A stretch of DNA of 64,000 nucleotides from Selenomonas sp. (GTDB taxonomy: Bacteria > Bacillota > Negativicutes > Selenomonadales > Selenomonadaceae), in NCBI GenBank assembly GCA_022482925.1, contig JAKVOG010000005.1:124001-188000 (forward strand), given 5' to 3'. A program made the position numbers and the translations under genes. The notes beneath the pieces were generated by a model, which did no database searches, was not told the origin of the DNA, and saw only the letters and a list, made by a program, of their open reading frames with translations. Shown piece by piece: positions 4,769-41,380 of the stretch (the first letter of the stretch is position 1; each line of letters starts with the position of its first letter).

Positions 4769-6488
4769 TCAGAGCTTGAATACCTTTATAGCCGTCTGCA
4801 ATTCCTGCGCCAGGTGTGCCAGCGAATCACTGGCCTGGGCAATATCCTGAGCCGATGCCGTCTGCTCCTCAGTTGCGGCCGATACCGACTGCATCTCATT
4901 GGAGATATTCTGGCTGTGCTGACTCAGCTGATCGACCGAAGACGTAATGCGTTCCGTATCGCCTGACACGCTGCGCATCGAATCCGAGATACCCTGGATC
5001 TCGCCGGCAATATTGCCGATCAACTGGACAATCTCACCGAAGTTCTCCTTCAGTCCGGCCACAGATGCCGTGCCTTCTACGACCTTATCCCGGCCAGTCT
5101 GCATGGAACCAACGGCTGCATTTGTATCCTGCTGTATCCTGCCGATCAGTTCGGCAATGCGCTGTGCAGCATCCTGAGACTGCTCCGCGAGCTTGCGGAC
5201 TTCATCCGCCACGACAGCAAAGCCGCGGCCATATTCGCCAGCGCGGGCAGCCTCGATGGCTGCATTGAGCGCCAGAAGATTCGTCTGTTCCGCAATCTCT
5301 GAAATCGTATCAACGATCTGACCGATCTCATGCGAGCGCTCGCCAAGCTTGTCAACAATAGCTGCGGAAGACTGAACCGTCTGCTCAACATCCTGCATCT
5401 GCTGCACCGCGTCTTCTACCGACTGCACACCATGCTGGGCCCGTCTGGATGCCTGCTGGGAATTCTCCGCCACATGAGCCGATGTCGCCTCGATCGTATG
5501 TACACTGGAAGCCACTTCCGCCACCGCCTGATTGCTGCGATCCACGGATTCCTGCTGCTGGGCAGCCGCACCGGCTGCATCAGTCACCGACTGTGCGACC
5601 TGATTCGAGGCTTCAGCCGACTGCTGGGAGCTGGCCGTCAGTTCCTCAGAGGCTGAGGCCAGATGTTCGGCCGTTTCGCTGAACTTGCCCATAAGCCCAC
5701 GGAGATTCGTGCGGACTTCCAGCAGTGCCGACCACATCTCCCCAGCTCATCGCCGCGTTCCAATGTGATTCCGTTATTCCGGAAGTCCCCATCTTTCAGC
5801 GCCCGGCAGACAATGATCATCTGCTTCAAAGCCGACGTGATCTCCCGGATAATGTAATTGGCCGCCAGGAAGAGCAGCAGGAAGGCCACGACCGAGATGA
5901 TAAGCATCATGCGGTTCGTTGCTGCCGACGTCTCACTGTTCGCCTGCTGTGAAGCTTTATCTCCTCATTGCAGTTATCCTGCAGATCCGTAAGGCTCTCC
6001 TTCAATGCATTGAGCTTCTTGATGCCATCGCCGCCATACAGGACGCTGGCCTCCTCCATACGGCCGGCAATCGTCAGCTCAATGACATCGCCGGATACCT
6101 TCTTATAGTCCTGCCACTTCTGCTCCGTATCCGCCAGCTTCGGCTGCACAGCCGGATCGCTGCCCATGAGGTCCTTATAGCTGTTCCATGCAGCCATAAA
6201 GTCCCCGCTGTATTTATCATTCAAATCATTCTTCATCTTCCCCCGGCGCTCCGGCTTCGGCGTAGCGACAGCCTCGAGCATAGCCGACTGGATCTTGCGC
6301 ATGTTCAGCTGATCCTCAGCCAGATACTGCTGCGCCGGCAAATAGGTACTGCCAAGTGTATTGACCGTTGTCTCCGCCTTCTGCAAGGAAGAGAAACCGG
6401 TAAACGATACTGCAGCCAATCCAATTGCCGCGACAAAAGCCAGACACAGGATCTTATAGGCCATACGAATATTACTCAACCAATTCAT
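4769..6488 (-). CDS. Methyl-accepting chemotaxis protein (two apparent frameshifts)
   Basis: Membrane chemoreceptor that would signal through CheA/CheW to the flagellar motor. In order: first membrane helix (about residues 10-30), a four-helix-bundle ligand domain to about 170, second helix ([14 protein letters not shown]), HAMP linker, and a cytoplasmic coiled coil with the conserved tip [17 protein letters not shown]. The reading frame breaks twice, near 5957 and near 5742. The second break is restored by one extra G in GAGCTGGGG, giving GDELGEMW. I treat this as one gene of about 570 residues with base-calling errors. Ligand unknown. A terminator follows at 4692-4727. Confidence 0.88.
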
Positions 6489-6766
6489 GATTATCCGACC
6501 TCCAGTAATTCACATACATCTTCCTAGAATGTAATTATACGCATAAATCGACTGAAATCCTACCAAATCCGATTAAATCTAAATAAAGTTATATTTTTTC
6601 TAAAGAAACCTTTGCATTCTCATGGTTCCGTACATGTCAGCCCCTATTTCAACAGAGCGATAAACTGGAATAGGTCACTCAGTTCATCGAAGAAGCACCA
6701 AGGCTAGGTACGATCAACCCCGCTCAGACAAAGTTCGGAGAACGAGTAAATATAACACAGCAAAGG
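6489..6766. other. Intergenic region upstream of ncRNA copy 1
   Basis: About 280 bases without a supported gene. The first 110 are A+T-rich and should hold the chemoreceptor promoter, though no clear -35/-10 pair stands out. From about 6615 base composition shifts and resembles the structured element that follows; a 5' extension of the RNA could lie here. TATAAC at 6751-6756 is a weak -10 candidate. Confidence 0.4.
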
Positions 6767-7330
6767 AGCGCGGGGTTCGTGGAAAGAAGACCGCCGCGGG
6801 GACAGAGGTCAGCCAACGTTCCACCTAGATGTTTTGCTAAAGAATTTTTTTGTCCTTAATGAAGCATTCCAAAAGCAGCTTAACGCACTTCGTTTGGACG
6901 GACGCTCTTTTGAAACGATCGATAGAAGACAAAAAAATTCTTCTTCACGCAAAACATCAAAGCTCCACTTATGGCTGACCTCTGTCCCCGCGGCTGGGCT
7001 CGATGCATCGATGTTTGCTTTCTCTAAATCAGCTACATTGCTGGTTCTCCCATTGATGCTGAAATTCAACAAACCTGCTCGAACCGAACCAAGACCTACC
7101 GTAAGAAGGATGATGATTCAAAAGCCGCCACTAATCGACGGCGGGCGAAGGGAAACTATTTTTTTCGTCCGGAACGAGTTGCCGTAGGCTGGCACGCCGT
7201 AGGTACTACCTAGGTCCGTCGATTCGTTGCGGCGCCGTGGTACCGGCGCGTCAGCTAAGTAAATACTATATTCTTAGGGCGGGACATTTAGTGCAGGACG
7301 AAAAAAATAGTTCCACCGAACCCCGTGCTG
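6767..7330 (+). ncRNA. Large structured non-coding RNA candidate, copy 1
   Basis: Long homologous blocks are shared with 40971-41380. Helices visible on the + strand: P0 6768-6779 with 7317-7328; P1 6793-6815 with 6972-6994 (23 perfect bp); P2 6828-6837 with 6949-6958; P3 6840-6854 with 6928-6942 (15 perfect bp); P4 7005-7013 with 7051-7059, enclosing 7027-7033 with 7040-7046; P5 7156-7170 with 7296-7310 (15 perfect bp); P6 7138-7146 with 7192-7200, which crosses P5; and a hairpin 7232-7237 with 7244-7249. G-U pairs at 7010/7054 and 6770/7326 favour the + strand. Neighbouring genes are on the other strand. I do not recognise the family. P0 suggests the ends given; promoter and terminator are not clear. 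Confidence 0.75.
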
Positions 7331-7430
7331 AGCCTGTGCCGACTCGTCACCTGTAACTTATCTTGCCAGCCTACCTCAACCTACCTCGTTTCCTCTCTGT
7401 AACTTACAGTTTATCGAGATGTTTGCACAC

Positions 7431-40967: not shown

Positions 40968-40970
40968 TTA

Positions 40971-41380
40971 GACCGCCGCGGGAACAGAGGGCAGCCAACG
41001 CTCCACCTAGATGTTCTGCTTATGGCTGCCCTCTGTCCCCGCGGCTGGGCTCGATGCATCAATGGCTGCTTTACTCTAAATCAGCTGAATTGCTGGTTCT
41101 GCCATTGATGCTGGAATCCAGCCAGTCTGCTCGAACCGAACCAAGACCTACCCTCAGAAGAAGCACCTGGCAGCAGCCGTTAATTTACGACGGCGGGCGA
41201 GGGGAAACTATTTTTTTCGTCCGGAACGATTTGCCGAAGGCTGGCCCGCCGTAGGTACTATCTAGGTCCGTCGATTCGTTGCGGCGCCGTGGTACCGGCG
41301 CGTAAACAAAATCCGTAGTTCCCGTCAAGGCGGGACATTTAGTGCAGGACGAAAAAAATAGTTCCACCGAACCCCGTGCC
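40971..41380 (+). ncRNA. Large structured non-coding RNA candidate, copy 2
   Basis: Shorter paralogue of 6767-7330. The same helices form: P1 40975-40997 with 41023-41045 (one A-C mismatch); P4 41056-41065 with 41102-41111, enclosing 41079-41085 with 41092-41098; P5 41208-41222 with 41347-41361 (15 perfect bp); P6 41190-41198 with 41244-41252 (9 perfect bp, crossing P5); and the GCGCCG hairpin 41284-41301. The P1 loop is only about 25 bases; copy 1 has a 130-base hairpin extension there. The P0 left arm is absent although its right arm (CCGAACCCCGTGC) is kept. Between the copies U6809-A6978 becomes G40991-C41029, a compensatory pair change. The element lies 137 bases before recQ and divergent from tolC. 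No U-rich terminator was seen; family unknown. Confidence 0.75.

Follow-up and report, generated by a model that had tools for sequence, protein, structure and literature searches.

The window, a 64,000-nt stretch of a Selenomonas genome, carries a repeat element of 759 nt at positions 6658 to 7416 of the plus strand. Its limits were obtained by comparing the flanks of the copies in the same genome and from their end positions, and they reach beyond the 6767 to 7330 given in a preliminary description. To the left of the element, two minus-strand open reading frames (ORFs), one at 5907 to 6488 with a four-helix MCP sensor domain and the other at 4769 to 5737 with an MCP signaling domain, look like one split chemotaxis receptor gene. 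The sole ORF of at least 100 amino acids inside the element (6834 to 7187) has no Pfam match, in keeping with the earlier view that the region holds no plausible gene, and ARAGORN found no tRNA in the window, as had also been supposed.

Architecture of the element

The element is bounded by a terminal inverted repeat, identified by inverted-repeat search and flank comparison, with CGATAAACTGGAA at 6658 to 6670 on the plus strand and its right-hand counterpart on the minus strand at 7404 to 7416, where the plus strand reads TTACAGTTTATCG. Around the central part lies a closing helix, whose left arm (6767 to 6779) pairs with the right arm (7317 to 7329) over 13 nt at 92% and encloses the other helices. 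The first folded part, hairpin A (6793 to 6994), is the module that is widespread elsewhere and was delimited by inverted repeats, an alignment of 81 copies, and a match to R1, a covariance model of hairpin A built from 21 sequences. R1 aligns with 6807 to 6980, scoring 190 bits on the plus strand and 46 bits on the minus strand. Hairpin A consists of a perfect 23-bp outer stem (6793 to 6815 with 6972 to 6994; 23 nt, 100%), conserved internal loops, an A/T-rich middle stem, and an apical loop, and it contains a second inverted repeat of 36 nt at 78% (6840 to 6875 with 6907 to 6942). The second folded part, module B (7124 to 7312), is made of helices at 7154 to 7175 with 7291 to 7312 (22 nt, 91%) and 7124 to 7141 with 7216 to 7233 (18 nt, 89%). 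The long perfect or near-perfect helices seen before are therefore real, as inverted repeats of 13 to 36 nt at 78 to 100%.

Also borne out is the second copy some 34 kb away, at 40970 to 41379 on the plus strand, which was found by sequence comparison with the first and by the R1 search. The two are 86% identical over 365 columns and 92% over 51, and ACTATTTTTTTCGTCCGGAACGA occurs at both 7155 and 41207, with a chance expectation of 0. The second copy is shortened: the 5′ arm and the apical part of hairpin A are missing, and no left end was recognized.

RNA folding of the region gives −224.8 kcal/mol for the plus strand (z −7.8 versus shuffles) and −238.2 kcal/mol for the minus strand (z −9.5), and the two strands fold about equally well. 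At gathering score, neither the window nor ten relative loci gave an Rfam match, which agrees with the earlier failure to place the structure among known large RNAs; lax searches of the two window copies gave 3 and 6 hits, every one far under the cutoff and belonging to miRNAs, snoRNAs, or one family of small RNAs.

Copies in the genome and its relatives

The window genome (G000; 2.94 Mb in 22 contigs, 89% complete) does not hold just the two copies first described but 25 long copies and fragments. A 564-base query gave 40 matches, 25 of which span at least 520 bases at 80 to 100% identity, the 100% match being the window copy itself; two more span 343 and 361 bases, and the remainder consists of shorter pieces and of hits that the palindrome makes on the reverse strand. 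These copies end in CGATAAACTGGAA and TTCCAGTTTATCG or close variants, and a left end of this kind could be located at 21 of 26 loci examined in this genome. The outer modules vary. L002, L003, and L007 have a module with CCAAGAGGTGAGTCCGAAGGACGAAGGCGATTGG-like hairpins on their left side, and in L004, L012, and L015 such a module stands in inverted form at the right side. Four copies have an inset of ∼100 nt. By eye, the small CCAAGAGGTGAGTCCGAAGGACGAAGGCGATTGG-like hairpins look kink-turn-like. One locus, L084 (G000:C12:6188-6479), is a deletion derivative of ∼290 nt that keeps both element ends and little else.

By BLAST the element was found in 9 of 41 genomes, every one of the same genus. 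A covariance-model search, of the kind proposed in the preliminary description, reached further: R1 matched hairpin A in 21 of the 22 genomes from the genus, G008 being the exception. Of 151 genomes sampled across the order, 56 had matches; they represent 11 of 30 genera and a single family. With stricter filters, a sample of the phylum gave 5 of 299 genomes, all from that same family. Because a palindrome can also score on the reverse strand, a genome has at most as many copies as matches (up to 62). In named genomes, Selenomonas, Centipeda, and Mitsuokella are among the matches listed for the loop pattern (at least 116). As many as 11 R1 matches lie within 17.5 kb at L246 (G124:C83:21000-38500), in the spaces between ORFs and as singles or inverted pairs.

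The inner loops of hairpin A are conserved across genera, although the ends of the element differ. Composition varies too. Elements in G001 and G013 have hairpin A with a diverged module B, like the window copy, and diverged relatives of module B at L038, L076, and L142 have main arms that changed together. Several species carry hairpin A in inverted pairs, and the elements of G018, G019, and G010 consist of two A hairpins inverted to each other. Several of L061 to L070 and L078 have, in one flank, an extra hairpin GAAGCCTCCATAAG..CTTATGGAGGCTTC and a GGGACTGTGAAA / TTTCACAGTCCCTTTT pair, whose T runs face outwards and are terminator-like. A repeated 18-mer, GGGGCTGTGAAATAACAC (G002, G013, G015, and G018; L087 to L094), is a different sequence, often at contig ends, and is similar to the terminal repeat of the S. 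ruminantium-type element.

The same 20-base loop is present in records labeled Lachnospiraceae, Clostridia, Bacteroidales, and one candidate phylum, on hairpins with quite different stems. R1 matched 13 of 26 such loci, mostly from metagenome bins, at E values of 0.001 or better (5e-9 to 7.5e-4), scores that are partly circular because the loci were picked by their loop. Judged by eye, the genes beside the hairpins in other phyla look housekeeping.

Pairing changes and gene context

In the 81-copy alignment of hairpin A, which was fitted to the covariance model, 96.8% of the cells are paired, 781 pair cells are changed on both sides, and one-sided changes are few. The covariation score is 0.763 compared to 0.164 for shuffled and at most 0.106 for slid structures, and the covariation that the preliminary description had proposed to look for is thus present.

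On the strand that is transcribed, the helices of a functional RNA can contain G-U, whereas A-C is not tolerated. For hairpin A, an alignment of 44 copies (MAFFT and RNAalifold) has 23 G-U and 18 A-C. The 81-copy alignment has 30 and 41, a count that omits one lone apical-loop pair, G-U in 47 copies, which had been entered in the model in error and is not predicted by RNAalifold. An alignment-free count of stem pairs outside the fitted model gave 18 G-U and 11 A-C in 75 of the 81 copies. The control, RNase P RNA from 19 genomes of the genus (20 were found and a truncated one was excluded), had 236 G-U and 0 A-C by MAFFT and RNAalifold; RNAalifold accepts G-U and rejects A-C, which pushes the control toward zero but applies equally to hairpin A. 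A second family, chosen by its loop (17 copies, 15 of them of clostridial type and two from one Veillonellaceae bin with the Selenomonas-type hairpin), has 43 G-U and 43 A-C, with 268 both-sided against 18 one-sided cells. Pooling 30:41, 18:11, and 43:43, of which two counts share the same copies, gives 91 G-U to 95 A-C (p 0.83). G-U being no commoner than A-C in hairpin A fits arms that are held complementary as DNA and not selection for an RNA helix.

Two sets depart from parity. The alignment of module B, a poor one of 13 copies that are for the most part nearly identical, has 40 G-U and 13 A-C. The 22 members of a young subfamily have 13 G-U and 35 A-C, which are shared by descent and are not independent events. 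Measured against its consensus, this subfamily has 165 changes in 178 × 22 stem sites and 68 in 62 × 22 loop sites, similar rates that would be expected if copies decay without selection on the stems.

Paired arms can also change together in place, as comparisons of orthologous sites show. One hairpin in an orthologous spacer of two Eubacteriales genomes has 26 both-sided changes and 2 one-sided changes to G-U, A-C being uncountable by the method used. The second hairpin of L299 versus L259 has 2 and 4, L299 versus L340 has 4 and 3, and one orthologous Selenomonas site (L006 versus G015) has 4 and 2, all three being weaker cases. Template switching between hairpin arms during DNA replication can produce both-sided changes, as described in a passage of PMC8794818.

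Among 56 copies taken as single, with A set to plus, the left gene faces A in 37 and faces away in 18 (p 0.014), and 20 of the 37 A-facing genes end 15 to 40 nt upstream of the hairpin; the right-hand gene has no orientation bias (28:25). All of these copies except L028 and L029 come from other genomes, with ORFs called crudely and known pairs removed by hand, and the set has flaws: at least L160 and L177 have a partner, L165 and L252 are one place counted twice, and L111, L118, and L157 look orthologous. REP repeats likewise lie close to gene ends, according to a passage of PMC3733652. The orientation bias is absent from the window genome, where the left gene is on plus in 10 and on minus in 15 of 25 copies. 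Many copies lie between codirectional or divergent genes, and inverted pairs occur between convergent genes, such as in the glnQ/truA spacer of L299 (gene names assigned by eye).

The preliminary description took the locus for a candidate large structured noncoding RNA, and the large conserved structure stands while the RNA nature is left unsupported. A structured RNA, either standing alone or in 3′ untranslated regions, with its helices selected as RNA and its copies spread by other means, would account for the strong covariation of hairpin A, the conserved internal and apical loops, and the excess of G-U over A-C in module B. Of the 55 single copies with a left gene, 37 lie in sense orientation behind its stop codon, 20 of them at 15 to 40 nt, and this is the best argument for an RNA role. 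Hairpin A, however, has no G-U preference on either strand (30:41 and 18:11, versus 236:0 for RNase P RNA), the strands fold about equally well, the orientation bias is absent in the window genome, the same hairpin is present in inverted pairs, stems change about as often as loops in the young subfamily, and the element is a repeat scattered over the genome, with one site that is empty in relatives. We therefore regard this explanation as unlikely.

Mobility, interpretation, and known systems

We compared six sites of the window genome with five relatives. The L018 site is element-free and continuous in G021 and nearly so in G008, while G015 has a remnant of ∼180 nt there that retains both ends. 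At the L006 site, G015 has an orthologous copy that has lost its left end, and the other four sites gave no joined answer. At the window copy's own site, the gene beyond yqeY is not the same in G015. In the single-contig genome G011, the yqeY region occurs three times (C1, near 9336, 2824407, and 2825719), perhaps through a duplication or an assembly overlap.

An ordinary MITE, in which a DDE transposase acts on the terminal repeats, the inner palindromes are passengers, and template switching keeps their pairing, would explain the short terminal inverted repeat of most copies, the modular outer parts, and the empty site at L018. By eye, no target duplication was seen in the flanks of the own-genome loci. 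Among 34 end-pattern matches in G000 (89% complete), with eight places inspected more closely, we found no autonomous element with the same ends and a gene between them. Moreover, the inner loops are kept across genera while the ends vary, and this explanation seems to us less probable than an RNA.

A Y1/RAYT mobilizer was rejected, since the presence of Y1_Tnp (PF01797) does not track with the repeat: within the genus, 13 of 22 genomes have it, including G008, which is without hairpin A, and it was not found in the repeat-bearing G000, G010, G011, and G018 (all drafts except G011). An origin from phages or plasmids was also rejected, as none of 50,697 phage records and 72,556 plasmid records matched the window element. 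Element L066 of Selenomonas sp. ND2010 likewise had no match among plasmid records, nor did two exact patterns in viral contigs. No transposase was recognized by eye in the ORFs of five loci from other species with the look-alike end GGGGCTGTGAAATAACAC, and no 100-amino-acid ORF lies between the hairpins of L245, the one widely spaced pair considered.

RNA hairpins made from both strands, for example behind convergent genes, would turn a G-U pair into A-C on the opposite strand and so disfavor it on both. Such hairpins would give parity of G-U and A-C and suit the inverted pairs found where genes converge, as in the glnQ/truA spacer of L299, but the many copies between codirectional or divergent genes make this very improbable.

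What has been observed is a repeat with a wide distribution, arms in which both sides change, few one-sided changes, no G-U preference in hairpin A, and at least one site where relatives have no element or a decayed one. On balance, we favor the view that it is a noncoding, intergenic, dispersed DNA repeat of large nested palindromes, akin to REP and BIME sequences and several times larger than the known ones. Against this DNA-repeat reading stand the 37:18 orientation bias, the 40:13 of module B, the uncounted apical-loop pair that is G-U in 47 copies, the 13:35 of the young subfamily, the weak orthologous comparisons, and the failure to find either a mobilizer or a target duplication. As a DNA repeat, its palindromes would fold while the DNA is single-stranded or extruded, in the course of replication or mobilization, and one arm could be copied onto the other by template switching or repair within the hairpin, in which case changes show on both sides simultaneously. 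The conserved unpaired stretches may be contact sites for a putative protein that moves or reads the element.

More tentatively, the element might belong to an ornate class of DNA hairpins with the common apical loop AAACGCGCTTCGCTTRRACG and similar unpaired stretches, found in intergenic spacers of Selenomonadaceae. Members with quite different stems would occur in Clostridia, Bacteroidales, and perhaps additional phyla. A putative protein sensing folded DNA would read or move these elements, and their two arms would coevolve in place.

Covariation is often read as proving that an RNA is functional. The present family is large, covaries very strongly, and has no G-U preference in its main hairpin, which makes it a natural test case for telling the upkeep of a DNA palindrome from selection on RNA. 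If the element moves, its mobilizer would be a new or unrecognized enzyme acting on hairpin or single-stranded DNA. The element also occupies intergenic space in a bacterial group common in the rumen, gut, and mouth.

In the titles and abstracts of open-licence papers, we found no description of the element among Selenomonas or Negativicutes repeats, structured RNAs, MITEs, or under its loop sequence, and the motifs treated in passages of two discovery papers that mention Negativicutes are other motifs (PMC6429828, PMC8632094). REP, BIME, and REPIN sequences are, like the element, dispersed, intergenic, and palindromic, and occur as singles and inverted pairs near gene ends; both-sided hairpin changes are also noted for REPINs in a passage of PMC3116915. 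REPs are ∼20 to 60 nt with stems of 5 to 13 bp, as given in parts of PMC3116915 and PMC3733652, whereas hairpin A alone is ∼200 nt and the element 759 nt, and Y1/RAYT genes do not track with it. MITEs share its noncoding nature, terminal inverted repeats, many copies, and empty site, but the element has no visible target duplication, no autonomous partner was found for it, and its inner loops are deeply conserved. It resembles OLE, GOLLD, ROOL, and HEARO in size and number of helices and differs from them in having no Rfam match and no wobble preference in hairpin A. Integron attC sites are structured DNA hairpins behind stop codons that are recognized as single strands; the element is much larger, and at L018 it was gained without a gene. 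We file it among the dispersed palindromic DNA repeats, as an outsized and ornate one.
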